Shown in pieces: positions 27,214 through 52,029 of a DNA stretch of 64,000 bases (the first letter of the stretch is position 1; the number at the start of each line of letters is the position of its first letter). The notes below the pieces were generated by a model. It saw only the letters and a program-made list of their open reading frames with translations, was not told the DNA's origin and ran no database searches. The DNA is from Clostridiales bacterium (lineage in GTDB: Bacteria; Bacillota; Clostridia; Christensenellales; CAG-138): contig JAAYUE010000030.1 in NCBI GenBank assembly GCA_012517905.1, positions 1 to 64,000 on the forward strand, written 5' to 3'. The translations under genes and the position numbers were made by a program.

Positions 27214-27225
27214 GGCTGCGCCTCC

Positions 27226-30698: not shown

Positions 30699-30755
30699 AT
30701 GGGGACACCTCGTTTCCGTTTTGTATGGTGGGAACCTTCCTGTGCGGACGTGTTC

Positions 30756-30790
30756 CCGGGGAGGGTGAGCTTTCGCTTCGCCCTCCCCGG
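30756..30790 (-). promoter_or_regulatory. GC-rich stem-loop between lipoprotein gene and ABC ATPase gene
   Basis: ccggggaggg / ccctccccgg 10-bp perfect stem, 15-nt loop. Confidence 0.65.
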
Positions 30791-30832
30791 ATGTTTCATT
30801 CTATCACTTGTCCGGCTTGAATACCGGCTTTT

Positions 30833-31912: not shown

Positions 31913-32047
31913 GATCTTTCCTCCATAAAAATGTGAAGTGTATCCGATGCGGGCGGCGAAGTATAATGAAACGAAGCTGATAGACGAATCGCAGGGCTGA
32001 AGCTCGGAAATTATACAGGATGACCGCGCCGCGCTGGACTTGTCTAA

Positions 32048-32076
32048 AATATAGCAGTTGTACAATCGTCCGTCAA
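32048..32076 (-). promoter_or_regulatory. Putative sigma-A promoter of the nucleoside uptake operon
   Basis: Minus strand TTGACG-N17-TATATT; predicts a leader of roughly 130 nt. Confidence 0.7.
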
Positions 32077-32129
32077 CTATAAAAAAGCGAAAATCGCTGG
32101 AATTTTGAAATATTTCGGTCAAAATATGC

Positions 32130-34826: not shown

Positions 34827-35462
34827 TTAGTTGAGGAGAATCCAATCCGGAATGCTGGGGGAATTGCTCTTCTCCAGATTTCGATAGTAATTATCGCGGA
34901 ACGCATTGTACACCTGAATGCAGGACATGCTGGAAATCAGCGAAGCGATCTCGTCGATGGACCCCGGCGAATCGGAGGCGATCCACTTTTGAATCAGGTT
35001 CAGCGCGGCCTGCCGGTGATACCGGATATAGACGTTGTAGTACAGCTCGACGTCTTCGGGAGGACCGTTCAACGTCTTGGCGACCAGTTCTTCGGTCTTT
35101 CCGTAATTTTCGATCTCCGCGCGGTAGACGAGGTCGGTCAGGCCGTTTTTGTAGAGAAGCGCAAAGAACTCTTTGTGCTGCAGATAGACGCCGATGCTGC
35201 GCTTCCAGTTCAGAAACTGCGTTTTGACTTCGGCGACAAGGCTGACCTCCGCAGCCTCCTCGCCGATTTCCTGCACCTTCTCATACAGAATCGCTTCCTT
35301 GGAAGAATAGTGCGAATAAAAGGCGGAGCGGGAAAGGTCCGCTTCCTTCACGATGTCGCGGATGCTGATTTTATGAAAGGGCTTTTCCTTCATGAGCTGA
35401 ATCAAAGCGTCCGAAAGCAATTTCTTTGTGCGCCGCACCTGTGGATTGTTTGACATGTACAA
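34827..35462 (-). CDS. TetR/AcrR family transcriptional regulator
   Basis: RRTKKLLSDALIQLMKEKPFHKISIRDIVKEADLSRSAFYSHYSSKEAILYE. Confidence 0.9.
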   Translation of the reverse strand: MYMSNNPQVRRTKKLLSDALIQLMKEKPFHKISIRDIVKEADLSRSAFYSHYSSKEAILYEKVQEIGEEAAEVSLVAEVKTQFLNWKRSIGVYLQHKEFFALLYKNGLTDLVYRAEIENYGKTEELVAKTLNGPPEDVELYYNVYIRYHRQAALNLIQKWIASDSPGSIDEIASLISSMSCIQVYNAFRDNYYRNLEKSNSPSIPDWILLN

Positions 35463-35491
35463 TTGACCCTCACAATAAGTAGTGTGTGTGT

Positions 35492-35524
35492 ATAGTATTA
35501 TACTATTTCATCCAGAATAGTATA
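35492..35524. promoter_or_regulatory. Candidate TetR operator
   Basis: Perfect 15-nt palindrome atagtat-t-atactat plus another aatagtata half-repeat, 30-60 bp upstream of the TetR start codon. Confidence 0.6.
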
Positions 35525-36049
35525 GATTATCGGTCAAAAATGCAAGCAAGTCCGACAAAATAACGCGATAAAATGTGAAAAATCAGACAGATTTGCCGGA
35601 GTGTATTATTTGCGCGAGCGTCTTGAAATCCATATTTGGCTATGATATAAAGAGTGTGTAAGAACAAGTGTACTGAATAAGACACATGTCATTTATGCAA
35701 GAACATCCCTGTCCTCCCAGAGTTCAGACCCCCTGAAACGGCGAATCAATCCCTGTTTAGAAGAGTTTTTGCAGGAATCCCTGCATAAAATGCAATTCAT
35801 GAAAAGCGCGGCCACAATCTCAATGCGCGCACCCATTCGCAGCCATGATCCGAAGCATCCTGAAAAGAACCCCTGTTTGATCCGATTCCATATCCCAGCG
35901 ACCCAACCGGCAGCGGATCGGTTGATGAACCGGCCCTGATACGCGCAGTCTTGTCCCGATCCAGACAAATCCCGGCGGGTTCGGCGCGGTCCGGCATCCC
36001 TCGCGACCGCTTTTCCGACATCATGTCATAGTTTTTTGGAGGCAGTGCA

Positions 36050-36808
36050 ATGAAAAAAAACATCCTGCGGCAGGCAGTCGACGGCGAAGACGTATTCGGC
36101 GTGTATTTAAGCATTCCCAGCCCGACCATGGTGGAAATCTGCAAGTTCGCCGGGTTCGACTACGTGCGGCTGGACATGGAGCATTCCCTGTACAGCCCGT
36201 CTGAAATCAGGGAGTGCCTGCGCACGGCGCATGCGCTGGAACTGCCCGCCTGGGTGCGCGTCAGCAGCCTGAGCAACATCACCGCATTGCTGGATATGGG
36301 GGCGACGGGCATCATCGTTCCCGACATCAAGAGCAAAAAGCAGGTGAAAGAGGCCGTGGAGATGGTCAAATACGCTCCGGTCGGCGCCCGCGGCATGATG
36401 CCCAGCGGCCGGACGCTGCGGTTTGGTCTCGACCCCATCGCGCCCGTGATCGAAACGGCGAACGACGAGATTTGCCTCGTCGTGCAGATCGAATCCCTGG
36501 AGGCGCTGAACGACATCGACGAAATCCTTTCCGTCGAAGGGCTGGATATGGTCTCCATGGGCAAGCAGGATATGTCCCAGTCTCTCGGCATCGCCGGACA
36601 GGGCGGACACCCGCGCGTGGTCGAGGCGGAGAATCTGCAGATTCAAAAGACGATCGCCGCCGGGAAATATCCCGCGCCGCTGGTCACCAGCCTTGCGAGG
36701 ATGAAGGCGTTTCGCGAGATGGGCGTGCATAACTTTACCATCGGCTACGACGTTGCGCTGATGATCGGCGCCTTTTCGGACTTACTAAAGAAGCACAAGG
36801 AGTGCTGA
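36050..36808 (+). CDS. HpcH/HpaI family (class II, metal-dependent) aldolase
   Basis: YVRLDMEHSLYS, VGARGMMPSGRTLRFG, LVVQIESLEALNDIDEILSVEGLDMVSMGKQDMSQSLG. Confidence 0.9.
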   Translation: MKKNILRQAVDGEDVFGVYLSIPSPTMVEICKFAGFDYVRLDMEHSLYSPSEIRECLRTAHALELPAWVRVSSLSNITALLDMGATGIIVPDIKSKKQVKEAVEMVKYAPVGARGMMPSGRTLRFGLDPIAPVIETANDEICLVVQIESLEALNDIDEILSVEGLDMVSMGKQDMSQSLGIAGQGGHPRVVEAENLQIQKTIAAGKYPAPLVTSLARMKAFREMGVHNFTIGYDVALMIGAFSDLLKKHKEC

Positions 36809-36865
36809 TTCGCTTCGAACCGGTTCAACCGGGCAATCCGGTTATTTGAAAGGAGTTTGTTTATC

Positions 36866-37513
36866 ATGGATAGAGAAGAATTGCGGCAGGCGTTTTCGAA
36901 AATCTCCACCGGAGACATCGCGGACGCACTGGTAGCGGTCGGTATCATGCCCCGCACGATCATCGGACTGCATTCCGTCGTCCCAACCCAGCAGCCCAGC
37001 GCGGGGTATGCCGTTACCATCCAGCAGATGGTCCGAAGCGTCAACCGCACCGAGCCCGCTCTTGCGACGCATGGAAAGGTCATCGACGGCATGCTCAAAG
37101 CGGGGGAAGTCCTTGTCATCGACGTCGGCGGCCGCATGGACGTCTGCACCGGCGGCGCGCTGCTTTCTCTGCGGGCGAAGATGCTCGGCGCGCAGGGGTT
37201 CATCGTCAACGGCTGCATGCGTGATCTGGACGACATCGCCGAGGTCGGGTTTCCGGTCTATCTCAAGGGCGGCTGCCCGATCAAGAGCTCTCCCATGCTG
37301 GAAACGGTCGGCGTCAATATCCCCGTTCAGATCGGGGACACGCAGGTTTGCCCGGGCGACCTGATCGTGATGGACCGGACCGGCATCATTCTCGTGCCCT
37401 CCGGACGGCTGCAGGAGGTCTATGACATGGCCCTTAAAGTGCAGGCGCGCGAGGACCATCACATGGAGTTTGTGGCAAAGGGCGGCACGATTGCCGATGC
37501 GCTGAAGGCGTAA
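36866..37513 (+). CDS. RraA-like / 4-carboxy-4-hydroxy-2-oxoadipate aldolase family protein
   Basis: ISTGDIADAL, GRMDVCTGGALLSLRAKMLGAQGFIVNGCMRDLDDI; in-frame downstream ATG at 36866. Confidence 0.85.
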   Translation: MDREELRQAFSKISTGDIADALVAVGIMPRTIIGLHSVVPTQQPSAGYAVTIQQMVRSVNRTEPALATHGKVIDGMLKAGEVLVIDVGGRMDVCTGGALLSLRAKMLGAQGFIVNGCMRDLDDIAEVGFPVYLKGGCPIKSSPMLETVGVNIPVQIGDTQVCPGDLIVMDRTGIILVPSGRLQEVYDMALKVQAREDHHMEFVAKGGTIADALKA

Positions 37514-37682
37514 CGGTTCGTCCTTGCATTCAGGTTTTTAAACAGGTTTCTAAGGGTTCGCCGCTCGGTGGAACGAGACGGTGCCTGCGGGGCAGAAGGG
37601 TACCCCCGTATGCGACAAATGCGGTCGAGTTCGAGCGAGTATGGAAACCCATTGAAAAAACAAATAAAACGGGAGGAAGAAA

Positions 37683-38723
37683 ATGAAAAAACTACTTGCT
37701 TTGCTTATGTGTGTTGCGATCACGCTCAGCTTCGCGGCATGCGCCAACTCCACGACACCGGCAGCTACGGCTGCGGACACGCAACCCGCCACGACGGACG
37801 CTGCGACCACGACCACCGAAGAAGCGGCCACAGAAGAAGTCGAATGGCCGACGCAGGCAATCACCGTCCTTGAGCCCTATGCCGCCGGCAGCACGTCCGA
37901 TCTGTGCCAGCGCCTGATCTGCTCCATGATGGAAAAAGATCTTGGCGTACCGATGGTCGTGAAAAACGTCGTCGGCGCGGACGGCGCAACCTGCTACACC
38001 GAGCTGAAGAACTCCAAACCCGACGGCTACACCCTTGGCCACGTGCAGCACTCCGGTCTGTGCATCGGCGTGTTCCTCAACGATCTGTCCTACTCCGCCG
38101 AAGATTTCTACTATTTCGGCTCCACCTCCCCCTTTGACCATTGCGTCAGCGTCGCCGCCAGCTCCGATATCTACACGCTGGACGATCTGATGGCATGGGC
38201 TGCGGATCAGGATCAGGTTGTGGTCGCGTACTCCGGCTACGTCAACGTCTTCAACGCCATGAACCTCTTCCGGGTCAAGGGCCTGGAAGACAAGATCGTC
38301 TGCATCGCGTACGACGACAACCCGGCGCAGGCCGTTGTCTCCGGCGACTGCGACGTTTGCGTCTGGCAGAAGGCCGGCACCCGTTCCACTGCGGAGTCCG
38401 GCAACCTGCGCATCATTGCCGCCCTGGCAACCGAGCGCTGGGCGGACATCCCGGATGTCCCGACCGCCCGCGAGCAGGGATATGACGTCCTCTCCATCGG
38501 GCACGCGTACTTTGCGGCGCCCATCGACACCCCCGACTACATCAAAGAGAAGCTGCAGGCTTCGTTTGACAAGTGCATTGCCAGCCCCGAATATCAGGAG
38601 CAGATGGCTGCCATGGGTTGGACCAACTACTACCTCAACCATGACGAAGCGACCGCGTACATCTACGAACAGCGCGAAGTTGCGAAGGAATATCTCACCG
38701 AGCTCGGGTTGATCAACAACTGA
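37683..38723 (+). CDS. tctC: Tripartite tricarboxylate transporter substrate-binding lipoprotein
   Basis: MKKLLALLMCVAITLSFAACANS lipobox; VEPYAAGSTSDLCQRLI TctC-like. Confidence 0.88.
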   Translation: MKKLLALLMCVAITLSFAACANSTTPAATAADTQPATTDAATTTTEEAATEEVEWPTQAITVLEPYAAGSTSDLCQRLICSMMEKDLGVPMVVKNVVGADGATCYTELKNSKPDGYTLGHVQHSGLCIGVFLNDLSYSAEDFYYFGSTSPFDHCVSVAASSDIYTLDDLMAWAADQDQVVVAYSGYVNVFNAMNLFRVKGLEDKIVCIAYDDNPAQAVVSGDCDVCVWQKAGTRSTAESGNLRIIAALATERWADIPDVPTAREQGYDVLSIGHAYFAAPIDTPDYIKEKLQASFDKCIASPEYQEQMAAMGWTNYYLNHDEATAYIYEQREVAKEYLTELGLINN

Positions 38724-38756
38724 GTTCAACCGGATATTCGCGCACGAGGAACTGTG

Positions 38757-38780
38757 CAGGGGCGGGCTTGCCCGCCCCTG
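38757..38780. promoter_or_regulatory. GC-rich stem-loop between tctC and tctB
   Basis: caggggcggg-cttg-cccgcccctg perfect 10-bp stem. Confidence 0.7.
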
Positions 38781-38804
38781 TAACCCCGAATTTGAGGTGT
38801 ACAC

Positions 38805-39560
38805 ATGAATAAGTTGCTGCAAAAGCTCAAAGAAAACGATTATATCATAAAAGTTTCGGCGCATAAGGCGGCGCTCATCTTTTCCGGCCTGATTGCGGTT
38901 GCAAACCTGTTGTTCTATTTCGTACTCACGCCCAGGTGGGTCTCCGGCAGTTCTCAGTTTGGCCCAAGCCCGCAAATGGTGCCCAATCTTCTGACGATCG
39001 GCATGTTTATCTGCGCGGTTGTCGTTTTCGTTACGGAACTGCGCGCAGTGCTCAAGATGAAGAAGGATAAGGCGGCTGCAGAGGAAAAGGCGAAGACGGC
39101 GGCGGAAAAGAAAAGCAAAGCGCAGATGAAGGAAACGGCCGCAGCGGAAAGTGAACCCAAAAGCGATACGGTCGCAGACGAATCCGCCGCAGCGAAGACG
39201 GAAGAGGAAGCTTGCGAGGACGTAGAGGAAAATTTCTTCGAAGAACTCCTGGAGGCTGCCAAGTCCGATTCCGTGACGTTGGATCTGCGCGGCGTCGTAT
39301 ACATTCTGGCGGTGGCCGCTTCGGCGCTGTTCTATGTGTTCTGTTCCGATTATCTGGGCTTTATTTTGACAATCGGCATCATCATGGTCGGGTTGATGCT
39401 TCTTTATGGCGTGCGAAAGCCGCTGACGATCATCATTACGACGCTCGTAATGTCCGTTGGCATCTACTTCGCCTTTACGAAGCTCCTGGGTCTGGTGCTG
39501 CCTGTGGGCGTGCCCCTGCCGATGATCGCCAAGCTGTTTACCGGATGGTTTCGCGCCTGA
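38805..39560 (+). CDS. tctB: TctB family protein with charged internal insertion
   Basis: Four hydrophobic segments; between tctC and tctA; Lys/Ala/Glu-rich insertion after the second segment. Confidence 0.8.
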   Translation: MNKLLQKLKENDYIIKVSAHKAALIFSGLIAVANLLFYFVLTPRWVSGSSQFGPSPQMVPNLLTIGMFICAVVVFVTELRAVLKMKKDKAAAEEKAKTAAEKKSKAQMKETAAAESEPKSDTVADESAAAKTEEEACEDVEENFFEELLEAAKSDSVTLDLRGVVYILAVAASALFYVFCSDYLGFILTIGIIMVGLMLLYGVRKPLTIIITTLVMSVGIYFAFTKLLGLVLPVGVPLPMIAKLFTGWFRA

Positions 39561-39575
39561 CAGAAAAGCACTTTT

Positions 39576-39781
39576 ATATGGAAGCGCGAGCGGCGCGGCG
39601 CTATGCAAGGCGCCGGGCGTGACTGGTTACAGTGTTCCGCCGCGTGCGCCAAATCTGCGCTTGTCGCCGATTCGGTCCGCGTGAACATGACGCTCGTTTC
39701 CATATGCTTGGGGCGATGATCTACTTTGCCATGAGAAATGGTGTCTTGTCGGTCGGGTTTCGTGTTTTTCTCATGGCGAAA
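39576..39781. repeat. Two adjacent imperfect inverted repeats in the tctB-tctA spacer
   Basis: atatggaa...gagcg (39576) vs cgctcgtttccatat (ends 39705); tttgccatgagaaa (39725-39738) vs tttctcatggcgaaa (about 39766-39780). Confidence 0.6.
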
Positions 39782-39809
39782 GGGCTTTAAGAAACGGAGA
39801 AGGATTAAA

Positions 39810-41339
39810 GTGGAAGTACTTCAAAACCTGCTGTTGGGTTTCATCAACAACTTTAACGGCATCAATTTTGTCTATCTGGTCGGAGGCGTCATCATCGGCG
39901 TCATCCTCGGCGCAATTCCGGGGTTGACGTGCGGCACGGCGATCGCCCTGATCATCCCCATGTCGTACTACATGGATACGGCGTCAGCGATGGTCCTGCT
40001 GCTGTCCATCTTCGTCGGCGGCATCTACGGCGGTTCCATTTCCGCCATCCTGCTCGGCACGCCCGGCACGCCCGCCGCGGCCGCGACCAGCATGGACGGG
40101 TATCCCATGGCGAAGCAGGGAAAGAGCGGAAAAGCACTGGAAGCTGCGCTGATCGCGTCCGCTCTGGGCACGGTGTTCAGCGCCATCATCCTCATCTTCT
40201 TCACCGAGCCGCTCGCAAAACTTGCCATGAAGTTCGGGTCGAAGGAATATGCAATATTGATTTTAGTGGCGCTCTCCATGGTCGGCTCCATCTGCGGCAA
40301 GAGCTTTGCCCGCGGCATGCTGTCCGCATTTCTCGGCCTGTGGTTTTCCACCATCGGCATGGACCCGCTGATCTATGCGAGCCGCTACAGCTTTGGCAAC
40401 GCGTATCTGCTCAGCGGATTCGATATGGTCGTCGTCATGATCGGCCTGCTCGCGGTTTCCGAGCTGCTCGTTCAGGTCGAGGCGCTGCATCAGAAGACCA
40501 AAGATAACATCGACCGGTGCCTGCTGCCGCCGCCGCAAACGAAGGATGACACGAGATACACCTGGAAGGACCAGAAAAAGACGGCCTTCACCACGCTGCG
40601 CGGGTGCGTCATCGGCTGCATCGTCGGCATCCTGCCGGCGATGGGCTCCGCCGTCGCTTCCTATATGTCGTATGACTACGCAAAACGCGGCAGCAAAGAT
40701 CCCTGCTCCTTCGGCAAAGGCAACGTCGAGGGCGTCGTCGCCTCCGAGTCGGCGAACAACGCCGTCTGCGCCGCCGCGATGATCCCGCTGCTCTCCTTCG
40801 GCATTCCGGGCGACGCCACCACGGCGATGCTGCTGGGCGTATTCATCATGCGCGGCTTCTACCCCGGCCCGACGCTGTTTACGAAGCAGCCGCTGCTGAT
40901 CTATACGATCTATGCCGCGTTTATCGCGGCGGCGATCGTGATGGTCATCATCATGAAGCTGTCCATGCCGCTGTTTGTCAAGGCCTGCAAGGCGAAGATG
41001 AACATCATCATTCCCTGCGTCGTTGCGGCCTGTATCATCGGCTCCTATGTTTCCCGCGGAAACATCATGGACCCGTTGGTCATGATGTTCTTCGCCCTCA
41101 TCGGATGGCTGTTCAGCAAGTTTGGATTCCCGGCAACGCCGATGCTGGTTGGCTATATTCTCGGAAAGCAGTTTGAAACGTATCTTCGCCAGGCGCTGAT
41201 GACCGCCGGAAAACTCGGATACGGGGTCTTCTTCTCCTCTACCATCTGCTGGATTCTGTGGGCGCTGCTCGCAATCTCCATCTTCAGCATCGTTCGCTCC
41301 AAGCGCCGCAGCAAGATGATGCAACTGAGCGCGGAATGA
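39810..41339 (+). CDS. tctA: TctA family tripartite tricarboxylate transporter large permease
   Basis: GAIPGLTCGTAIALIIPMSYYM, GSISAILLGTPGTPAAAATSMDGYPMAKQG; likely GTG start. Confidence 0.93.
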   Translation: MEVLQNLLLGFINNFNGINFVYLVGGVIIGVILGAIPGLTCGTAIALIIPMSYYMDTASAMVLLLSIFVGGIYGGSISAILLGTPGTPAAAATSMDGYPMAKQGKSGKALEAALIASALGTVFSAIILIFFTEPLAKLAMKFGSKEYAILILVALSMVGSICGKSFARGMLSAFLGLWFSTIGMDPLIYASRYSFGNAYLLSGFDMVVVMIGLLAVSELLVQVEALHQKTKDNIDRCLLPPPQTKDDTRYTWKDQKKTAFTTLRGCVIGCIVGILPAMGSAVASYMSYDYAKRGSKDPCSFGKGNVEGVVASESANNAVCAAAMIPLLSFGIPGDATTAMLLGVFIMRGFYPGPTLFTKQPLLIYTIYAAFIAAAIVMVIIMKLSMPLFVKACKAKMNIIIPCVVAACIIGSYVSRGNIMDPLVMMFFALIGWLFSKFGFPATPMLVGYILGKQFETYLRQALMTAGKLGYGVFFSSTICWILWALLAISIFSIVRSKRRSKMMQLSAE

Positions 41340-41397
41340 TCGGCGCTTTTCACCGAACGACCATCTATATTGATTAACAATCGACAGGAGAACGAAC

Positions 41398-41718
41398 ATG
41401 AACCATTGGGAAGTATTGAAAACGCAGGACACAGAGCTGAACGATAAAATTCAGGCCTGGAGAGCCCACATCAACGACAAGAACGATCTGGATCGCAAGT
41501 ATAAGGAACTGCTGATGGTTTCCATGAGCTGCGTGCGTCTGTTCCGCGACGGTGTGTTGAGCCACGGACAGTTTGCGCTGGATTACGGCGCGACCCCCAC
41601 GGAGCTCTTCGCAGCGGTCGAGCAGGCGATCTTTATCGGCGGTATTCCGGCGTTCAAAACCGGCGCGGAGTGCTTTTTTGAGATTTGTCCGGACGCCGTG
41701 ATCGGCGAAAAGAAATAA
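41398..41718 (+). CDS. Carboxymuconolactone decarboxylase (AhpD-like) family protein
   Basis: DRKYKELLMVSMSCVRLFRDGVLSHGQFALDYGATPTELFAAVEQAIFIGGIPAF. Confidence 0.8.
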   Translation: MNHWEVLKTQDTELNDKIQAWRAHINDKNDLDRKYKELLMVSMSCVRLFRDGVLSHGQFALDYGATPTELFAAVEQAIFIGGIPAFKTGAECFFEICPDAVIGEKK

Positions 41719-41789
41719 GTTCGAGCTCCGGCGCAGACACGCTTTGCCGGTCTGCGCCGGAGGACCGGATCAGTGGAGGAGAGAATACC

Positions 41790-42110
41790 ATGAATCAACC
41801 TTCGGCTTACCATTGGGAACTGATGGAGGAAATGAACCCCGAGCAGCGCGTCAAGTGGAATGAATTCTGCAGCCTTGTCAACGTCAACGACTGTCTGCCC
41901 GCGAAGTACAAGGAATTGATCGTCTGCGGCATGGCGTATGTATTGCATTGCAAGCCCGCCACCATCACCCACACGATGTATGCCATGGAAAAATATGGCG
42001 CAACCAGGGAAGAAGTCTTCAGCGTGCTCGGGCTGGCCATGATGATGGGCGGTGCGCCCGCCTATCGCGACGCCTGTCTGAATCTGGAAGAGTACCTCAA
42101 GACCAAATAG
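41790..42110 (+). CDS. Carboxymuconolactone decarboxylase (AhpD-like) family protein
   Basis: AKYKELIVCGMAYVLHCKPATITHTMYAMEKYGATREEVFSVLGLAMMMGGAPAY. Confidence 0.8.
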   Translation: MNQPSAYHWELMEEMNPEQRVKWNEFCSLVNVNDCLPAKYKELIVCGMAYVLHCKPATITHTMYAMEKYGATREEVFSVLGLAMMMGGAPAYRDACLNLEEYLKTK

Positions 42111-42234
42111 CGCTGATGTCAGGTTTGAATTGGTTGACCATCGCCATTTCATGCGTCGTACCAATCCAATGTTGGCGAACGAACGATAAAATTCGTGCCT
42201 TGCAATCATCATTTCACGGGAGGAAGAAAACACA

Positions 42235-43125
42235 ATGAAATTCGCATTCAATGCGAGCGATCCGAAATTCTACGACCTGATCGACGTAGAAGCAGAGTTT
42301 GAGTCCTGCTCCACCGGCCATTCCGTCACGGAAGGCATCATCTGGTGGCCGCAGAAGAATTGTCTGGTCTTTTCCGACATGGCGGCCGGCAAGGTGTACA
42401 CATGGAACCCCGAAACCTTTGAGACCAAAATCATCAAACAGCCCAGCAACATCACCAACGGCAACTTCATCGACCGCGACGGCAATCTGGTCTCCGTCGA
42501 GCATGCGACCAACCGCGTCGTCCGCTGGGAACCCGACGGCCGCTGGATGCGGACGCTTGCGGACAGCTATGAGGGCCGCGCGCTCAACAGCCCGAACGAC
42601 ATCATCGTCGACCGGAAGGGACGCATCTGGTTTTCAGATCCGACGTACGGCCATATCAGCGCCGTCGCGGGCATCCAGCGCCCCTGCGAACTGGACTTCC
42701 AGGGCGTCTACTGCATCGACACCGACGGCAGGCTGATCCTTGCCAACAAGGACTTCACGCAGCCCAACGGCCTCTGCGTTGAAATCGGCGAAGAAACCAT
42801 GCTGGTCAACGATACCGGCAGAAACAACATCCGCCGCTATAAAATTGAAGACGACTGCACGCTCAGCGGCGGCGAACTCGTCTGCGAAGTGCCAACGCCG
42901 GACGGCACCAAGATCGATAAGGACGGAAACATCTACACGACCTACAATATCGGTTCCGGCGTCACCATCTTCGATAAAGCCGGCAAAAAGCTCGGCGAAG
43001 TCAACGTGCCCGGCAACTGCCGCAATTTCTGCTTCGGCGGCCCGAATCTGGATTATCTGTATTTTGCATGCAACGTCATCTATCGCCTGAAGATCAAGAC
43101 GCAGGGATACGACGTGTATCGGTAA
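42235..43125 (+). CDS. SMP-30/gluconolactonase/LRE-like lactonase
   Basis: TEGIIWWPQKNCLVFSDMAAGKVYTW, LNSPNDIIVDRKGRIWFSDPTYG, PNGLCV, VPTPDGTKIDKDGNIYTT. Confidence 0.9.
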   Translation: MKFAFNASDPKFYDLIDVEAEFESCSTGHSVTEGIIWWPQKNCLVFSDMAAGKVYTWNPETFETKIIKQPSNITNGNFIDRDGNLVSVEHATNRVVRWEPDGRWMRTLADSYEGRALNSPNDIIVDRKGRIWFSDPTYGHISAVAGIQRPCELDFQGVYCIDTDGRLILANKDFTQPNGLCVEIGEETMLVNDTGRNNIRRYKIEDDCTLSGGELVCEVPTPDGTKIDKDGNIYTTYNIGSGVTIFDKAGKKLGEVNVPGNCRNFCFGGPNLDYLYFACNVIYRLKIKTQGYDVYR

Positions 43126-43152
43126 GCGTTGCGCACAGCGCTATTAGGGGGT

Positions 43153-43199
43153 CGCGCGAAGGGGACGTAGGGAGAAGATTTACGCCCTCTTCGCGCGTA
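43153..43199. promoter_or_regulatory. Long intercistronic stem-loop between lactonase gene and dhaK-like gene
   Basis: cgcgcgaaggggacgta / tacgccctcttcgcgcg, about 17 bp with one G-U and one mismatch. Confidence 0.65.
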
Positions 43200-43346
43200 T
43201 CGCCATATTGCGTCGACAATTGACGGGGAAAGACGCGCGGTGTTTGACTTTGATTTCCCCGATTTCTGGAACGATACATCCTGGCGGTTCGGCTTCAGTG
43301 CGCGCGTTTGGGGCCGGATCCGCGTTTTCAGAAAGGAATGGAAGAT

Positions 43347-44345
43347 ATGAATAAGATTATGAATCGGCCGGACAGTTTCGTCGACGAAAGCCTGTCCGGC
43401 ATCGTCCTTGCGCATGGCGACGCGCTGAAGTTTGCTCAAGGGGATCATCGCTCCGTCGTCCGCGCGGATGCGCCCGTCGCCGGCAAGGTCGCGATTGTGA
43501 CCGGCGGCGGTTACGGCCATCTGCCCGTATTTCTGGGCTATGTCGGCAAGGGTTTTTGCGACGGCGTCGCGGTCGGCAATGTGTTTACGTCCCCGAGCTG
43601 CGACGCGATTGTCGACGCCGCCAGAGCGGCCAACGGCGGCGCGGGCGTGCTGTTTCTGTTTGGAAACTATATGGGCGATACCATGAATTTTGAGATGGCG
43701 GCCGAGTTGCTGGACATGGACGACATCCCCACCGCGATCGTGAAGGCGGCGGACGATATTGCGTCCGCGCCGCGGGCGACGTTTCAGGACCGCCGCGGCG
43801 TCGGCGGCATTTTCTTTCCTTATAAACTTGCCGGCGCAAAGGCGGAGCGCATGGCGTCGCTGGACGAAGTGCGCGGCATCGCCGAATCGGTCTGCGCCAA
43901 CGTTGCGACGCTGGGATTTTCAATGTCCTCGTGCCAGCTCCCCGGCATGCCGAAGCCGATATTTGAAATCAGCGCGACGGAGATGGAGCTTGGCATGGGC
44001 ATCCACGGCGAACCCGGCGTGGAGCGCACAACGATGAAGTCGTCCGCGGAGCTGGCCGAAATCCTCTCGGAAAAACTCTGCGCCGATTTGGCGGTAAAAG
44101 AAGGGGACGAGGTCGCCGTGCTGGTCAACAGCCTCGGCGCAACCTCGAAGGAAGAGCTCTATATCCTCTATAACGACTTTCATGCATGCCTCGAGCGACG
44201 GCAGATCCGCGTCGAAAAGGTCTTCGTCGGGGAGTATGCAACGTCGCTTGAAATGCTTGGCGCGTCGGTCTCCCTACTGAAGCTGAACGAGGAATTCAAG
44301 CAGCTGCTGTCCGACAGCGCCTGCACGCCGTTTGTCAGGGTTTGA
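43347..44345 (+). CDS. dhaK: Dihydroxyacetone kinase-like DhaK subunit
   Basis: GGGYGHLPVFLGYVGKGFCDGVAVGNVFTSPS; GIHGEPGVER substrate-binding His region. Confidence 0.92.
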   Translation: MNKIMNRPDSFVDESLSGIVLAHGDALKFAQGDHRSVVRADAPVAGKVAIVTGGGYGHLPVFLGYVGKGFCDGVAVGNVFTSPSCDAIVDAARAANGGAGVLFLFGNYMGDTMNFEMAAELLDMDDIPTAIVKAADDIASAPRATFQDRRGVGGIFFPYKLAGAKAERMASLDEVRGIAESVCANVATLGFSMSSCQLPGMPKPIFEISATEMELGMGIHGEPGVERTTMKSSAELAEILSEKLCADLAVKEGDEVAVLVNSLGATSKEELYILYNDFHACLERRQIRVEKVFVGEYATSLEMLGASVSLLKLNEEFKQLLSDSACTPFVRV

Positions 44346-44358
44346 CGGGAGGGGTTCC

Positions 44359-44976
44359 ATGTATCAAATCGACGATGTCAAAGGGGCGATCAATCGGGTG
44401 GCGCAGGCCATCCGCGAACACCGGGACTATCTGGGCGAACTGGACGGGAAATCGGGCGACGGCGACCTCGGACTCAGCATGGAAAACGCGTTTGACGCGG
44501 TGCAAAGCACCGCGGACGAGTATGCCGGATCGTCCATAGCCGAACTGCTGACAAAAGCCGCCATGAACTGCAACAGGGCGGCGCCCTCGACGATGGGCAC
44601 GCTGATGTCCGCGGGGATTCTGTCGGTTGCCAAGGCAGCAAAGGGCAAGGATGCGTTTTCGGACGAGGATGTCGTGGGCCTGCCGCGCGCGTTTGCGGAG
44701 GCGATCATGGCGCGCGGCAAGGCAAAGCTGGGCGACAAGACCATACTGGACGCGCTGCTGCCGCTGGCGGACACGCTGGAAGCGGAGTTTGCGAAAAACC
44801 GGCCGCTGAAGGAAGCCTTTGCCGCGGCGGCGCAAACGGCGAAGACTGCTGCGGAAGCGACGGCGGGCATGCGCGCGGCGATCGGCCGGGCAAAATGGCT
44901 GGGAGAGCGCGCCGCCGAATATCCGGACGGAGGGGCCATTCTCTGCGCGGTGATCGCCGAGACGCTCGCGCAATAG
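44359..44976 (+). CDS. dhaL: Dihydroxyacetone kinase-like DhaL subunit
   Basis: LDGKSGDGDLGLSMENAF; GTLMSAGIL; DKTILDALLPLADTLEAEF; GGAILCAVIAETL. Confidence 0.9.
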   Translation: MYQIDDVKGAINRVAQAIREHRDYLGELDGKSGDGDLGLSMENAFDAVQSTADEYAGSSIAELLTKAAMNCNRAAPSTMGTLMSAGILSVAKAAKGKDAFSDEDVVGLPRAFAEAIMARGKAKLGDKTILDALLPLADTLEAEFAKNRPLKEAFAAAAQTAKTAAEATAGMRAAIGRAKWLGERAAEYPDGGAILCAVIAETLAQ

Positions 44977-45071
44977 CGGACGAACCGCCGCGGGTTCGCG
45001 GCCGGCAAGCCGATAAAAGCACTCTTTCGCCGCACGAAGCGCGCATTAAGAACATCATTGCAGGAGGGCAA

Positions 45072-46286
45072 ATGAACGATTTTACTTTTTTGAGCCCCAC
45101 GCGGCTGATTGTCGGCCGAAAGGCGGAGGAGCGGACCGGCGAATGGATCAAGGCATACGGCGGGCATAAGGCGCTTGTCCATCACGACAGCATGTACTGC
45201 AAAACGAGCGGCCTTGTCGATAAAATCATCGATACGATCCACGCGGCGGGCGTCGAAACCGTCGAACTCGGCGGCGTTGTCCCCAATCCGCATCTGGACC
45301 TGGTGTATCAGGGCATCGAACTGTGCAGAAGGGAAAACGTGGACTTTGTGCTTGCCATCGGCGGAGGCAGCGTGATCGATTCCGCAAAGGCGATCGCCAT
45401 GGGCCTCAAGTACGACGGCGACGTCTGGGATCTGTTTGTGGAGGACAACGGCGTCACGCGCGGCGTCGAGACGGAGCCCTGCGTGCCCGTCGGCGTCGTG
45501 TTGACGATCGCCGCGACGGGAAGTGAGAGCTCGAACAGCTGCGTGATCACCAAGGTGGACGAACAGCTCAAACGCTTCTGCGACAACGATTTGCACCGGC
45601 CGGTGTTCGCAATTGAGGATCCGGAGCTCACGATGTCCCTGCCGAAATTCCAGACCGCCTGCGGCGTTATCGACATCATGTCGCACTCGATGGAGCGCTA
45701 TTTCACCAATGTGCCGACCGGAAACGAGCTGACCGACCGTCTGTGCGAGGCGATTTTTCTGACCTGCATGGACTGCGGCCGCACGCTGATGGACGATCCG
45801 AACAACTACGACGCGCGCGCCAACGTCATGGTCGCGTCCTCGCTGTCCCATAACGGACTGACGGGCATTGGGCGCAACAACAGCGGCGACTGGAGCTCCC
45901 ATTTCATCGAGCATGAGCTCTCTGGTGAATACGACGTGACCCACGGGGCGGGCCTTGCGGTCATCACGCCGGCCTGGATGAAATATGTCTATCGGGACAA
46001 TATGCCGATGTTTCTGAAATGGGCCACGCGCGTCATGGGCGTTTCCCACGACTACTGTAACCCTGAGCTGACGGTGCTGGAAGGCATCCGCCGGCTGGAA
46101 GATTTCTTCCGTTCCCTCGGGATTCCGACCACCATGCGCGAAATGCCGGATGTGGGCGTCGTTCCCGAAGAGATCATGTACAAGATGGCGAAGCGCGTTC
46201 GCATTACGAACAAAAACGGCACGGTCGGCACGCTCAGGCAGCTCGCCACGGAGGATATCGTCAACATCTTCAGGCTGGCGCAGTAA
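45072..46286 (+). CDS. Iron-containing alcohol dehydrogenase (BDH/YqhD-like)
   Basis: AIGGGSVIDSAKAIAMGLKYDGDVWDLF, TIAATGSESSNSCVIT, HGAGLAVITPAWMKY. Confidence 0.92.
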   Translation: MNDFTFLSPTRLIVGRKAEERTGEWIKAYGGHKALVHHDSMYCKTSGLVDKIIDTIHAAGVETVELGGVVPNPHLDLVYQGIELCRRENVDFVLAIGGGSVIDSAKAIAMGLKYDGDVWDLFVEDNGVTRGVETEPCVPVGVVLTIAATGSESSNSCVITKVDEQLKRFCDNDLHRPVFAIEDPELTMSLPKFQTACGVIDIMSHSMERYFTNVPTGNELTDRLCEAIFLTCMDCGRTLMDDPNNYDARANVMVASSLSHNGLTGIGRNNSGDWSSHFIEHELSGEYDVTHGAGLAVITPAWMKYVYRDNMPMFLKWATRVMGVSHDYCNPELTVLEGIRRLEDFFRSLGIPTTMREMPDVGVVPEEIMYKMAKRVRITNKNGTVGTLRQLATEDIVNIFRLAQ

Positions 46287-46368
46287 CGCGGCGCTCCCGT
46301 CTGCCGGAAACGGGGCGGCGTAGTATCGATTGTCTGTGTAGAAAGCCGATCGCTGCGAGGAAGAAACG

Positions 46369-47049
46369 ATGAGAGTATACGCGATCAATGCAAGTCCGAG
46401 GAAAAAATTCAACTCCGGAACGATGCTGGACCATTTTGTCCAGGGGGTCGCCGCGGCTCAGGCCGATATCGAGGTCGTCCGCAAGAATCTTTACGAACTG
46501 GAATACCGCGGGTGCTGCGAGTGCTATCGCTGCCGCACAAAGGGCGGCGCGGACTACGGCAGATGCGGCTATCCCGACGCGATTCGGGACCTGCTGGACG
46601 ACATGGCGCACGCCGACGGAATCGTGTTTTCGACGCCGATCTATTTTCACAACATTCCCGGGGAACTGCGCAGCTTTATGGAGAGGCTCCTGTACCCCTT
46701 CATCTCCTATGGAGAGGGCGGCCGCAGCTGCATCGCCCCGCGCAAGATTCGAACGGCCTTTATCTACACGATGAATGTGAAAGCGCAGGAGATGCAGGAT
46801 CGAGGCTACGAACACTATCTGGCCTCCATGGAAAATTGGACGCAGTATGTGTTCGGCCACCCGCCGGAAAAAGTCTACGCGTTCAATACCTACCAGTACG
46901 CGGACTATTCGAAATATGAAGCCGGCGCCTGGAGTCTGGAAGACAAGACCCTGTGGCGCGACACGCAGTTTCCGGTCGACTGCAAACACGCGTTTGTGGC
47001 CGGCAGGAGAATGGCCATGCGAATTCTGCAGGACAAAGTGCAATCATAG
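46369..47049 (+). CDS. Flavodoxin-like NAD(P)H-dependent oxidoreductase
   Basis: INASPRKKFNSGTMLDHF; CCECYRCR; DGIVFSTPIYFHNIPGELRSFMERL. Confidence 0.87.
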   Translation: MRVYAINASPRKKFNSGTMLDHFVQGVAAAQADIEVVRKNLYELEYRGCCECYRCRTKGGADYGRCGYPDAIRDLLDDMAHADGIVFSTPIYFHNIPGELRSFMERLLYPFISYGEGGRSCIAPRKIRTAFIYTMNVKAQEMQDRGYEHYLASMENWTQYVFGHPPEKVYAFNTYQYADYSKYEAGAWSLEDKTLWRDTQFPVDCKHAFVAGRRMAMRILQDKVQS

Positions 47050-47090
47050 AATGGAGGAGCGGCTCGACACAAGCCACGACAACAGTACGC

Positions 47091-48614
47091 ATGAAACAAA
47101 CGGAAATAACGAAACTGAAACCCTTTATCAACGGACGATATGTGGACTCGAAGGCTGCGAAGCATACGAACGTATACGACCCGTCTACCGGCAGGGTGAT
47201 CGCGCAGGCGCCATGCTGCACCATGGGCGAGGTGGAGACCGCGATTGCGGCGGCCAAAGCCGCCTTTCCCGCATGGTCGGCAACGCCTGCCCATAAACGG
47301 GCGCAGCTCTTTTTCAACCTGAGAAATCTGCTGACGGCCAATCTGGACGAACTGACGCTGTCCGTGGCCACCGAAAACGGCAAAAACTGGGAGGAATCCA
47401 GGGGAGACGTCGCCAAGGCCATCGAAATGGTCGAAATGGCCTGCGGCATTCCCGCGCTCATGATGGGCGAATCGTTGATGAACACCTCCACCGGCTACGA
47501 TACGGTACTGTATCGCGAGCCGATCGGCGTATTTGCCGGACTGGCGCCGTTTAATTTTCCCGCCATGATCCCTATGGGGTGGATGGCGCCGCTTGCCATC
47601 TGCTGCGGCAATACCTATGTGCTCAAGGCGTCCAGCATGACGCCGATGACGGCGCTGCGCGTTGCGGAGCTTTACCGCCAGGCCGGATTTCCGGACGGCG
47701 TGCTGAACGTCGTCACCTGCTCCCGCGTGGAAGCCGACCAGTTTATGTCGAATCCCGATATCAAGGGCATTACGTTCGTCGGGTCCACCTCGGTCGGGCT
47801 GCATATCTATTCCGAAGCGGGCGCGCACGGCAAGCGGGTTCAGTGCCTCTGCGAGGCGAAGAACCACGGGCTCATCCTCAAAGACGCGCCCATTCAGCGT
47901 ACTGTCGCGGGCGTCATCAACTCCGCCTTTGGCTGCGCGGGCGAGCGCTGCATGGCGCTCTCGACCCTCGTTGTGGAGGAAGAGATTGCGGACGCTCTCG
48001 TGGCGGAACTCAAGACGCAGCTGGCAGGCCGCAATGTCGGCCCGGCCTACGACAAAAAAACGAATCTGGGCCCGGTGATCTCCGCCGAACACCGGCGGTC
48101 CATCTGCGACTGGATTCAGAAGGGCATCGACGAAGGGGCGAAGATCGTGCTGGATGGACGGGACGTCGTGGTTCCCGGCTATGAGGACGGCTTCTATGTC
48201 GGCCCGACCGTTCTGGACCATGTGCGGCCCGGCATGACCGTCGGGGACTGCGAAATCTTCGGGCCGGTGCTCTGCATCAAGCGCGTCAAAAATTTTGAAG
48301 AAGGGCTGGCGATCATGAACGCCAATCCCTACGCCAATGGATCGTGCATCTTTACGCAAAACGGCTATTATGCGCGCGAGTTCGCCCGCCGTACGGACGG
48401 CGGCATGGTTGGCGTGAATGTCGGAATTCCTGTGCCGGTTGCCATATTCCCGTTTTCCGGCCATAAAAACAGCTTCTTTGGCGATCTGCATGCGCACGGC
48501 AAGGACTTCGTCCGCTTCTTTACGGAGAGCAAGACCGTGACCTCGCGCTGGTTTGACGAAGAGGAGATGAAGCAGACGCAAGTCCATACCTGGGACGGAT
48601 CCATGTCCCGATAA
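47091..48614 (+). CDS. CoA-acylating (methylmalonate-)semialdehyde dehydrogenase family
   Basis: PFNFPAMIPMGWMAPLAI, FVGSTSVG, EAKNHGLILKDAPI, INSAFGCAGERCMALST typical of MmsA/IolA. Confidence 0.9.
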   Translation: MKQTEITKLKPFINGRYVDSKAAKHTNVYDPSTGRVIAQAPCCTMGEVETAIAAAKAAFPAWSATPAHKRAQLFFNLRNLLTANLDELTLSVATENGKNWEESRGDVAKAIEMVEMACGIPALMMGESLMNTSTGYDTVLYREPIGVFAGLAPFNFPAMIPMGWMAPLAICCGNTYVLKASSMTPMTALRVAELYRQAGFPDGVLNVVTCSRVEADQFMSNPDIKGITFVGSTSVGLHIYSEAGAHGKRVQCLCEAKNHGLILKDAPIQRTVAGVINSAFGCAGERCMALSTLVVEEEIADALVAELKTQLAGRNVGPAYDKKTNLGPVISAEHRRSICDWIQKGIDEGAKIVLDGRDVVVPGYEDGFYVGPTVLDHVRPGMTVGDCEIFGPVLCIKRVKNFEEGLAIMNANPYANGSCIFTQNGYYAREFARRTDGGMVGVNVGIPVPVAIFPFSGHKNSFFGDLHAHGKDFVRFFTESKTVTSRWFDEEEMKQTQVHTWDGSMSR

Positions 48615-48708
48615 ATCGCGCCGACGCACCGGGCAATCGGAACAAACCGGCGCGGATGGACCGAAATCGGGCATGTTATTTAGAATCATGATTGGAGGAA
48701 AAACTTTG

Positions 48709-49854
48709 ATGAAAGCGGATTTGGTGGTCAGAAACGGGCGGCTGTTCGACCCGTCCCAAAACTTGGACATGGTGGGCGATGTCGCCATCGTCAACGGAAA
48801 AATCGAGGCGATCGGGCCGAATCTCGACGTGGCGGCGGCGATGTCCATCGACGCCTCGGGATGCCTCGTAACCGCGGGCTGGATCGACATCCACGCGCAT
48901 ATATATGAGGGCAGCACCCCGAACGGGATGCCCGTCGACCTCGGTGCGCTGCCGATGGGTATCACCGCGATCGTGGACGCCGGCAGCTCCGGCGTGGCCA
49001 GCTATCGCAACCTGCTCAGGCAGCTGCGCGCCAACAAGACGCGCGGCAAGCTGATGCTCAACGTCAGCGCCTGCGGCATCATCATGCCGAACCAGTTTCC
49101 GGAGCCGGTCGATCCAAAGGTTTGGGACCAGAAACTGTTTGAAAAAGCATATGCCGAGTGCGGCGAGGATATGATTGCGCTCAAGCTGCGCGTATCCCGC
49201 GGCATCGTCGGTGCGCTGGGCCTCGAGCCGCTGCACAAAGCGATCGAAGCCGCCGAGCGGCTCGGCACGAAGCTGGTCGTGCACGTCACCGACGGACCGG
49301 CTCCGATGCGGGAGATCGCGGCGATCCTGCGCCCCGGCGACGTGTTCTGCCACGTATTCCACGGCACCGGACACACGATTCTGACGCCCGAAGGAAAGGT
49401 GGACCCGGGCATCTATGAGGCGCGCGAGCGCGGCGTCATCTTCGACGCCTCCTCCGGACGCGGCAATTTCTCGCTTCGCGTGGCGCGCGCGGCGATTGAG
49501 CAGGGCTTTCTGCCGGATAGCATCAGCACCGACGTAACGCTGCAAAACTGGAATCACCCGCTGGCTGGCCAGCTGCCCACCGTTATGTCGAGATATCTCC
49601 CGCTCGGTATGTCGCTGGCGGATATCATCTCCTGCGTGACCGACGGACCGGCCGTCCAGTTCGGCACCGAGGGCCTCGGCACGCTCGCGCTCAACACGCC
49701 CGCGGACATTACCGTTGCAAAGATGGAGCAGACGTCGAAGCGCTATGTCGACAAGGACGGAGACAGCGTGGATTATTCCGAACTGTTTATTCCGAAAGCG
49801 ACGATCGTCCGCGGCGAGCTCTGGTATCGCGCGGTGGACTGCGCGCTTCTGTAA
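48709..49854 (+). CDS. Amidohydrolase / EF_0837-AHA_3915-type deacetylase family
   Basis: DLVVRNGRLFDPSQNLDMVGDVAIVNGKIEAIG; WIDIHAHIYEG; VHVTDGPAPMREI; HVFHGTGHTIL; STDVTLQNW. Confidence 0.85.
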   Translation: MKADLVVRNGRLFDPSQNLDMVGDVAIVNGKIEAIGPNLDVAAAMSIDASGCLVTAGWIDIHAHIYEGSTPNGMPVDLGALPMGITAIVDAGSSGVASYRNLLRQLRANKTRGKLMLNVSACGIIMPNQFPEPVDPKVWDQKLFEKAYAECGEDMIALKLRVSRGIVGALGLEPLHKAIEAAERLGTKLVVHVTDGPAPMREIAAILRPGDVFCHVFHGTGHTILTPEGKVDPGIYEARERGVIFDASSGRGNFSLRVARAAIEQGFLPDSISTDVTLQNWNHPLAGQLPTVMSRYLPLGMSLADIISCVTDGPAVQFGTEGLGTLALNTPADITVAKMEQTSKRYVDKDGDSVDYSELFIPKATIVRGELWYRAVDCALL

Positions 49855-49877
49855 GACTACCCGGTTACTGTTATCGG

Positions 49878-49983
49878 GAGCGCGGCCGCCCGCGGCGCGC
49901 GCTCGGGATAAAACGCCATTTTCAGATCGTACCACATGGCTGACACTGCCCATATCGCGGTCTGACTCGCCGCGGTATGGGCA
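49878..49983. promoter_or_regulatory. Tandem intercistronic stem-loops
   Basis: gagcgcg...cgcgctc (49878-49904) and tgcccatatcgcgg-tctgactcg-ccgcggtatgggca (49947-49983, one G-U). Confidence 0.6.
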
Positions 49984-50052
49984 ATTGCATCGGCAGCCAT
50001 CATTATAAAACGAACGACCACGGAATCCGACAGAAAGGCAGCGCAGATAATC

Positions 50053-50943
50053 ATGAAAGAATCGATACACAAATATTTTCAGGTGGGGACCGTCCAGTGG
50101 ATGAGCTATCCGAAACTCGATCCGATGGAATCGCTTCGGGCAATCTGCAGGGACGATTTTTTCGACGCCATAGAACTAAAGGGGTTCGGCGTGAAAAACG
50201 CGGAAGCAAAGGCGCTGCTGGAGCAGAGCCGCCTGCGCGTTTGCTACGGGGCGCAGCCCAGATTGCTGGGGCCGAAGTTGAACCCGAACGCCATCGACGA
50301 GGCGGATCGCAAAAAAGCGGAAGCCACCCTGCTGGAGGGGGCGGACGAGGCCAAACTCCTCGGCGCAAAGGGGATTGCATTCCTCGCCGGGAAATGGGAG
50401 AATGAAACGAAGGAGCAGGCGTACGAACAGCTTCTGAAAACGACGCGCAACGTTTGCAGCTATGCGGCGACGCTGGGGTTGGCGGTGGAGCTGGAAGTGT
50501 TCGATTTCGACATGGATAAGGCCGCGCTGATCGGGCCCGCGCCCTACGCCGCGAAATTCGCCGCGGACATGCGCGCCACGCACTCGAACTTCGGTATTTT
50601 GGTCGATCTGTCCCATTTTCCGACCACCTATGAGACAAGCCGGTTCGTCGTTCAGACGCTTCGCCCGTACATCACGCATGTGCATTTCGGCAACGCGGTC
50701 GTGAAACCGGCCTGCGACGGATATGGGGATTTGCACCCGCGCATGGGCTATCCCAACGGCGCAAACGACGTGCCGGAGCTGGTCGACTATCTGCGCGTGC
50801 TCAGGCAGGAGGGGTTCTTCTGCGCCGAGGAACCGCTTGTGCTCTCCATGGAAGTTACGCCGCGCCCCGGCGAGGACGAGCAGATCGTGCTGGCAAACAC
50901 AAAGCGCGCGCTGAACCGCGCATGGGCGCTGCTGGAGGACTAG
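50053..50943 (+). CDS. Sugar phosphate isomerase/epimerase-like TIM-barrel protein
   Basis: ELEVFDFDMDKAALIG, FGILVDLSHFPTTYE, THVHFGNAV, FFCAEEPLVLSMEVTPRPGED; xylose isomerase-like AP-endonuclease fold. Confidence 0.7.
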   Translation: MKESIHKYFQVGTVQWMSYPKLDPMESLRAICRDDFFDAIELKGFGVKNAEAKALLEQSRLRVCYGAQPRLLGPKLNPNAIDEADRKKAEATLLEGADEAKLLGAKGIAFLAGKWENETKEQAYEQLLKTTRNVCSYAATLGLAVELEVFDFDMDKAALIGPAPYAAKFAADMRATHSNFGILVDLSHFPTTYETSRFVVQTLRPYITHVHFGNAVVKPACDGYGDLHPRMGYPNGANDVPELVDYLRVLRQEGFFCAEEPLVLSMEVTPRPGEDEQIVLANTKRALNRAWALLED

Positions 50944-50967
50944 ATCGATTCCGGAAAGGAAGGATTC

Positions 50968-51933
50968 ATGAAAATTGTAGTATTGGACGGGTATACCGAA
51001 AACCCAGGCGATCTGAGCTGGGACGAACTGGGAAAGCTGGGCGAACTGACGGTGTACGACCGCAGCAGCCTGACCGACGAGCAGGAGGCGATCGACCGCA
51101 TCGGCGACGCCCAGATGGTGTATACCAATAAAACGCCGATCAGCCGCAAGGTGATCGACGCCTGTCCGGAGATGCGCTATATCGGCATGCTGGCCACGGG
51201 CTATAACATAGTGGACGTGGAATACGCAAAGTCGAAGGGGATTCCGGTGTGCAACGTGCCCGGATACGGCACCGCTTCGGTGAGCCAGTATGCAATTGCG
51301 CTGCTGCTCGAGATCTGCCATCACATTGGCCATCATGCGCAGACCGTGAAAGAAGGCAAATGGCAGAACAGCATCGACTGGTGCTATTGGGACTACCCGC
51401 TGATCGAGCTGGACGGCAAGACCATGGGCGTCATCGGGTTTGGTCGCATCGGCCAGTCCACCGGACGCATCGCCAAAGTGCTCGGCATGCGCGTGCTGGC
51501 GCACGACGTGGCGCAAAGCGACGCAGGCCGCGCCGTCGGCGAATATGTGGATCTGGACACGCTGTTTGCGCAGTCCGACGTGATCGCGCTGCATTGCAAC
51601 CTGACCGCCGAAAATACCGGCATCATCAACCGCGCCAACATCGCCAGGATGAAGACCGGCGTGATTCTCATCAACAATGCGCGGGGCCAGCTGGTGGTCG
51701 AGCAGGACCTTGCGGACGCGCTCAACAGCGGCAAGGTGGCGGCGGCGGGGCTGGACGTTGTGTCGACGGAGCCGATCAGGGCGGACAACCCGCTCTTATC
51801 CGCGGCCAACTGCATCATCACCCCGCATATCTCATGGGCGCCGAAGGAAAGCCGGCAGCGGATCATGGACTGCGCCGTGGAAAACGCAAAAGCGTATCTG
51901 GCGGGCGCGCTGCAGAATGTCGTCAATCCATAA
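50968..51933 (+). CDS. D-2-hydroxyacid dehydrogenase (glycerate dehydrogenase-like)
   Basis: MGVIGFGRIGQSTGRIAKVLGMRVLAHD; LINNARGQLVVEQDLADALNSG; ITPHISWAP. Confidence 0.92.
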   Translation: MKIVVLDGYTENPGDLSWDELGKLGELTVYDRSSLTDEQEAIDRIGDAQMVYTNKTPISRKVIDACPEMRYIGMLATGYNIVDVEYAKSKGIPVCNVPGYGTASVSQYAIALLLEICHHIGHHAQTVKEGKWQNSIDWCYWDYPLIELDGKTMGVIGFGRIGQSTGRIAKVLGMRVLAHDVAQSDAGRAVGEYVDLDTLFAQSDVIALHCNLTAENTGIINRANIARMKTGVILINNARGQLVVEQDLADALNSGKVAAAGLDVVSTEPIRADNPLLSAANCIITPHISWAPKESRQRIMDCAVENAKAYLAGALQNVVNP

Positions 51934-51958
51934 GCATTGAATCATACGATTCATAAAT

Positions 51959-51998
51959 AGAACGGGAGCGCATCATCCAAGCGGTGCGCTCCCGTTCT
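51959..51998. terminator. Bidirectional terminator between convergent operons
   Basis: Perfect 14-bp stem agaacgggagcgca-N12-tgcgctcccgttct between converging genes. Confidence 0.8.
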
Positions 51999-52029
51999 GT
52001 CGATTGCTGCCGTGAAGCTTTCGAAAAAC

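Follow-up and report, generated by a model that had tools for sequence, protein, structure and literature searches.

We analysed a 64,000-nt stretch of DNA (the window) from an uncultured Clostridia genome, a 2.99-Mb draft in 84 contigs (Clostridiales bacterium, contig JAAYUE010000030.1). Positions 36050-51933 contain 16 open reading frames (ORFs), all intact and all on the plus strand. They encode two aldolase-like enzymes, a transporter, a lactonase, a kinase, several dehydrogenases, and additional enzymes. The genes overlap or are tightly spaced, and the GC content is even along the set. A first-pass annotation had proposed that these 16 co-directional genes form one novel catabolic pathway coupled to a tripartite tricarboxylate transporter (TTT). 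All of its ORFs were recovered in place, some with adjusted starts, and the Pfam and NCBIfam results agree with its gene families; the curated Pfam cut-offs were passed by every one of the 16 genes. The family assignments support the catabolic character, the coupling to a TTT, the aldolase chemistry, and a DhaK/DhaL-type kinase, and the CoA-acylating semialdehyde dehydrogenase was confirmed by its NCBIfam model. The comparisons described below showed that the cluster is an unusual, real combination assembled from recurring modules of known kinds; a single novel pathway is not evidenced.

The first gene encodes an HpcH/HpaI-family class II aldolase (HpaI; 36050-36808, PF03328, 117 bits). Membership in this superfamily follows from the Pfam cut-off and from the active-site residues His, Arg, Glu, and Asp, which are conserved in an alignment with PDB entry 4tv5. 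The protein shares family and active site with the class II pyruvate aldolases GarL, HpaI, and RhmA, but it lies far below each equivalog cut-off, i.e. 150 versus 369 for HpaI, 123 versus 407 for GarL, and 109 versus 441 for RhmA. The nearest relatives in the sample are 42% identical. One of them (genome G201) has a TTT, a 2-hydroxyacid dehydrogenase, and, as read from the sequence, a fumarase-like hydratase in its context, and the other (G287) has a 2-hydroxyacid dehydrogenase as well as a carrier of the TRAP type and hydratases resembling aconitase, both again read from the sequence. The inspected plasmid relative of HpaI sits within a siderophore cluster. The second gene encodes an RraA-like aldolase/decarboxylase (RraA; 36866-37513, PF03737, 96.5 bits) with the R-D motif GCMRDLDD, and its best relative among 180 related genomes has just 34% identity.

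The following three genes encode a complete TTT, i.e. the solute-binding lipoprotein TctC (37683-38723, PF03401), TctB (38805-39560, PF07331), and TctA (39738-41339, PF01970, 466 bits). As in other TTT clusters, all three subunits adjoin catabolic enzymes; unlike in these, TctA has no close relative, with zero matches at E<=1e-130 across the 180 related genomes. Next are two CMD-family proteins (CMD1, 41398-41718, and CMD2, 41790-42110; PF02627, 34 and 39 bits, respectively) and an SMP-30/gluconolactonase-family lactonase (SMP-30; 42235-43125, PF08450, 145.6 bits). Orthologues of SMP-30 were found in G019/RUG11019 (78%) and in “Candidatus Enterocloster faecavium” (65%). Their clusters hold CMD, RraA, and MmgE/PrpD-family proteins as well as a TTT or another carboxylate carrier (the carrier by sequence reading), and neither contains a DhaK, an IolA-type dehydrogenase, or the TIM-barrel protein described below. 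The cluster of E. faecavium (L025, 1653-11485), with SMP-30, CMD, an NADP-isocitrate dehydrogenase, an MmgE/PrpD-family protein, an aldehyde dehydrogenase, and an iron-type alcohol dehydrogenase, looks like an undescribed polycarboxylate route. Related TTT/amidohydrolase/RraA clusters are present in G050 and G039. The one in G050 adjoins citrate-lyase genes (L108, 1114-9750): CitX-CitG are directly followed by RraA, an amidohydrolase, and TctABC, a placement that resembles that of the window cluster beside its own citrate-lyase operon.

The next two genes encode a DhaK-type ketose kinase subunit (43350-44345, PF02733, 368 bits) and a DhaL-type ATP-binding subunit (44332-44976, PF02734, 134 bits), so that both the Dak1 and the Dak2 domain are present. 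DhaK retains the covalent-binding His (GIHGEPG) and the Asp (NYMGD). A Gly replaces the Lys of classical DhaK (KNYLGD in 3ct4), and Gly was also found in five other bacterial DhaKs that were compared. The pair thus has both subunits and the characteristic His and Asp of the dihydroxyacetone kinase DhaKL, but the phosphotransfer subunit DhaM is missing among the 16 cluster genes, and both proteins are below their own equivalog cut-offs, with the fused kinase family PRK14479 as top model. DhaK and DhaL are likely to form a ketose kinase; its substrate may be dihydroxyacetone or a tetrulose. Plasmid relatives of DhaK have a different context from that in the window cluster, next to a phosphotransferase system (PTS) and a class II aldolase. 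On a mobilizable E. coli IncN plasmid (L115, 3817-10944), genes for PTS, class II aldolase, DhaK, DhaL, and HPr are consecutive, representing an unassigned sugar pathway with its own HPr.

The kinase genes are followed by an iron-type alcohol dehydrogenase (FeADH; 45072-46286, PF00465) and a flavodoxin-fold NAD(P)H/FMN reductase (46369-47049, PF03358 and PF02525), in the sequence of which the Cys-rich motif CCECYRC..C was read. FeADH is YqhD/butanol-dehydrogenase-like (best NCBIfam model PRK15138, 225 bits, below cut-off), and its 72% orthologue in G176 is on a 3.3-kb contig without other cluster genes. Further downstream, at 48673-49854, is a metallo-amidohydrolase, which has the weakest Pfam calls of the set (34.3 versus 29.7 bits and 25.1 versus 25). 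It clearly belongs to the deacetylase-like PRK12394/EF_0837 group, with an NCBIfam score of 357.8 bits, below the cut-off of 442; the comparison with PDB entry 8je0 “Amidase” yielded 225 bits.

Between the reductase and the amidohydrolase is a CoA-acylating (methyl)malonate-semialdehyde dehydrogenase (ALDH; 47091-48614), which is IolA-type with a TIGR01722 score of 558.7 versus a cut-off of 448.5. The closest solved structure is 1t90, a probable methylmalonate-semialdehyde dehydrogenase (475 bits), and the catalytic Cys motif GERCMA aligns with it. ALDH has a Lys at the position of the Arg in the 1t90 motif GRGIENV, which we take to be a carboxylate-binding Arg. The exchange is not taken as a sign of function loss, because Lys is common to other relatives, including one from a true iol operon. 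Relatives with 61-67% identity occur in eight genomes, and the 67% relative (G071) adjoins IolD, IolE, and IolG, all above cut-off, i.e. it belongs to a true inositol operon. Malonate semialdehyde and triose phosphate are the end-products of the myo-inositol pathway. The window cluster resembles a myo-inositol operon in its IolA-type enzyme, but it carries a kinase for an unphosphorylated ketose instead of the other iol genes. In the window genome, no IolD over the cut-off was found (best value 233 bits versus 715), and the ALDH query had no further match. Therefore, malonate semialdehyde must have another source, and the myo-inositol pathway was rejected on the basis of the missing IolD and the absence of any other iol gene from the cluster. 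It is nevertheless likely that ALDH acts as an IolA-type enzyme at the malonate semialdehyde step. The D-apiose and sulfosugar pathways were rejected as well, as the cluster lacks the characteristic gene set of either.

The last two genes encode a TIM-barrel protein of the AP_endonuc_2 family (TIM; 50053-50943, PF01261) and a D-2-hydroxyacid dehydrogenase (HADH; 50968-51933, PF02826/PF00389), which form a recurrent pair. Homologues with identities of 59-82% (TIM) and 58-73% (HADH) are directly adjacent in G128, G135, G094, G048, and Enterococcus gilvus; in G048 they are followed by a glycerate kinase. On the E. gilvus plasmid pCR1A (L114, 10300-15053), the allantoin-degradation region contains a Gcl-like thiamine pyrophosphate enzyme, TIM (65%), a D-2-hydroxyacid dehydrogenase, and a glycerate kinase, a row that suggests an alternative hydroxypyruvate isomerase/reductase pair. 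The thiamine pyrophosphate enzyme scores best with the glyoxylate carboligase model (636 bits, under the cut-off of 791), and the glycerate kinase is above its cut-off. The same order of jobs is found in the gcl, hyi, glxR, and glycerate kinase cluster of P. aeruginosa (PMC12694930). By analogy with this cluster, TIM is in the hyi position and HADH in the reductase position. These positions in the E. gilvus order, together with the pairing, led to the prediction that TIM is a tartronate-semialdehyde/hydroxypyruvate isomerase and HADH a hydroxypyruvate reductase, and the two enzymes would probably convert tartronate semialdehyde via hydroxypyruvate to D-glycerate. The pair is thus a probable alternative tartronate-semialdehyde/hydroxypyruvate-to-glycerate module. 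In contrast to the P. aeruginosa cluster, the window cluster itself contains neither a carboligase nor a glycerate kinase, and a D-2-hydroxyacid dehydrogenase replaces GlxR. The window genome encodes a glycerate kinase elsewhere, outside the cluster. In several genomes, relatives of the pair are flanked by split transketolase subunits, and G128 adds an IolO-like epimerase and a ComB-like protein. TIM orthologues adjoin split transketolases at L086 (3271-7756, also with an IolO-like epimerase), L088, L091, and L092, and such loci possibly represent a separate keto-sugar-acid pathway.

A gene for a TetR-type regulator (34827-35462, minus strand; Pfam TetR_N, 43 bits) is located upstream of and divergent from the 16 genes. 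It is a candidate local regulator of the cluster and might regulate all 16 genes jointly. The divergent intergenic region contains a perfect 9-nt inverted repeat (TATACTATT-8-AATAGTATA, 35499-35524). This region (35463-36049) has 587 bases and several inverted repeats, and a long leader or an overlooked small gene is possible. At the other end, a strong hairpin (51957-52002, no strand assigned, z -7.1) separates HADH from a convergent citrate-lyase operon with CitG, CitX, CitF, and CitE. The widest non-coding gap within the set has about 220 bases (SMP30-DhaK). No classical terminator, i.e. a hairpin with a U-tract, was seen in the gaps between the 16 genes. Stable hairpins without a U-tract are present in three gaps, two of which coincide with module borders derived from the comparisons (SMP30-DhaK and amidohydrolase-TIM), while the third (CMD1-CMD2) is inside the first block. 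When the two border gaps were folded as a whole, the hairpins were less exceptional (z about -2). A promoter scan yielded no more matches than in shuffled sequence, and Rfam had zero matches to the window. A single transcript for all 16 genes is possible. The starts of CMD2 (41790), FeADH (45072 instead of the longer ORF from 44895), and ALDH (about 47091 instead of 46953) were corrected; those of DhaK (probably 43350, or 43308), the amidohydrolase (possibly 48709), and TctA (maybe nearer 39810) are less certain.

A second copy of the 16-gene set was searched for in 100-180 related genomes, in a sample of 391 genomes taken across the class, and in one scan of 84,980 species. None was found; the searches were sampled or used a single anchor, so that a rare copy could escape. 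The scan of 84,980 species, anchored on SMP-30, had three matches, none of them with the rest of the set. The idea of one novel 16-gene pathway is only partly supported: no identical cluster was found in these genomes or in the literature searched, but at least three parts of the set occur separately in other genomes. Some of these parts have recognisable jobs there, and the linear logic that had been proposed to join all 16 genes is not supported.

The separate occurrence of the parts would also be expected if the set consisted of at least three adjacent operons with unrelated jobs that merely share a direction, i.e. HpaI-RraA-TctCBA-CMD-SMP30, DhaK-DhaL-FeADH-FMN reductase-ALDH-amidohydrolase, and TIM-HADH. 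The hairpins at the SMP30-DhaK and amidohydrolase-TIM borders agree with this explanation, but they lack a U-tract and have a counterpart within the first block. Short gaps, the common direction of all genes between the divergent regulator and the closing hairpin, and the lack of an internal regulator gene make separate operons rather unlikely. An assembly artefact, or a recently shuffled and partly decayed locus without coherent function, is given very little weight: the genome is a draft in 84 contigs and synteny of the whole set was found nowhere else, but 16 of 16 frames are intact, the genes are close or overlapping with even GC content, and catalytic residues are conserved where checked.

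The neighbours of SMP-30 orthologues (MmgE/PrpD-family, CMD, RraA, and once NADP-isocitrate dehydrogenase), the G050 and G039 clusters, the former beside citrate-lyase genes, and the R-D motif of RraA are consistent with a route for a tricarboxylate or an aromatic-derived polycarboxylate. SMP-30 or the amidohydrolase would open a lactone, and RraA would act as a 4-carboxy-4-hydroxy-2-oxoadipate-type aldolase, yielding pyruvate and oxaloacetate. This is improbable, as the cluster lacks a hydratase, MmgE/PrpD, or an isomerase of such routes, DhaK/DhaL and TIM-HADH would be left unexplained, and RraA is below the LigK cut-offs (63.7 versus 304.5 bits). We see a still smaller chance for a single dedicated fermentative pathway, in which a TTT-imported sugar acid or lactone would be opened and cleaved unphosphorylated to malonate semialdehyde and dihydroxyacetone, i.e. 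to the end-products of inositol breakdown by a different path, and a non-Hyi-family isomerase would handle tartronate semialdehyde/hydroxypyruvate.

Our preferred reading is a composite locus for anaerobic catabolism, with a hydroxy- or sugar-acid or the corresponding lactone as substrate; we assign a probability of roughly 45% to this whole picture. The sequence tests show how the genes are ordered and to which families they belong, the IolA subfamily, the recurrent TIM-HADH pairing, and the separate occurrence of parts; each reaction, the order of steps, and the substrate are inferred. TctCBA would import an organic acid that is probably a carboxylate of a hydroxylated or sugar-acid-like type. 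SMP-30, the amidohydrolase, or both would act early by hydrolysis, opening a lactone or removing a side group, with SMP-30 as the presumed entry step. HpaI and/or RraA would then catalyse the retro-aldol cleavage of a 2-oxoacid intermediate to pyruvate or oxaloacetate and a short aldehyde. Three exits could follow. TIM and HADH would convert tartronate semialdehyde via hydroxypyruvate to D-glycerate, to be phosphorylated by the glycerate kinase encoded elsewhere; ALDH would convert malonate semialdehyde to acetyl-CoA, CO2, and NADH; and DhaK/DhaL would phosphorylate dihydroxyacetone or a tetrulose, presumably after the retro-aldol cleavage. In the exit to acetyl-CoA, FeADH may interconvert short aldehydes and alcohols and thereby balance redox.

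Several points weigh against a composite locus of this kind. The searches turned up no further genome with this combination, and thus selection as one unit lacks support. HpaI is below every equivalog cut-off. Neither a source of malonate semialdehyde nor a step for the two CMD proteins, the amidohydrolase, or the flavin reductase could be assigned. TIM matches neither TIGR03234 (hydroxypyruvate isomerase) nor any other NCBIfam model and is therefore not filed as Hyi, and its single-sequence structure model has a predicted local distance difference test value of 45, too poor for use. Several genomes place TIM beside split transketolases and not beside glycerate enzymes, and in G066 and G003 it occurs without HADH. 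The exact reaction of Hyi is itself under debate (PMC12694930), which further limits what can be deduced for TIM and HADH.

The window contains additional genes upstream of the cluster. A YjjI-type glycyl radical enzyme and its YjjW activase, both above their NCBIfam cut-offs, are encoded directly upstream (32222-34581). On the minus strand, positions 25879-32122 encode an amidohydrolase, two BPD_transp_2 permeases, an ATPase, and a BMP-type binding protein, i.e. a nucleoside-type importer, and a GntR-family gene (24164-24943) lies beyond the amidohydrolase of this set.

If the modules cooperate, anaerobic Clostridia would have a further, uncharacterised route of acid degradation, and unassigned enzymes would gain a first lead to their function. 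The TIM-HADH pair is the most useful testable outcome; it is found repeatedly in several families, where it could help to refine annotation.

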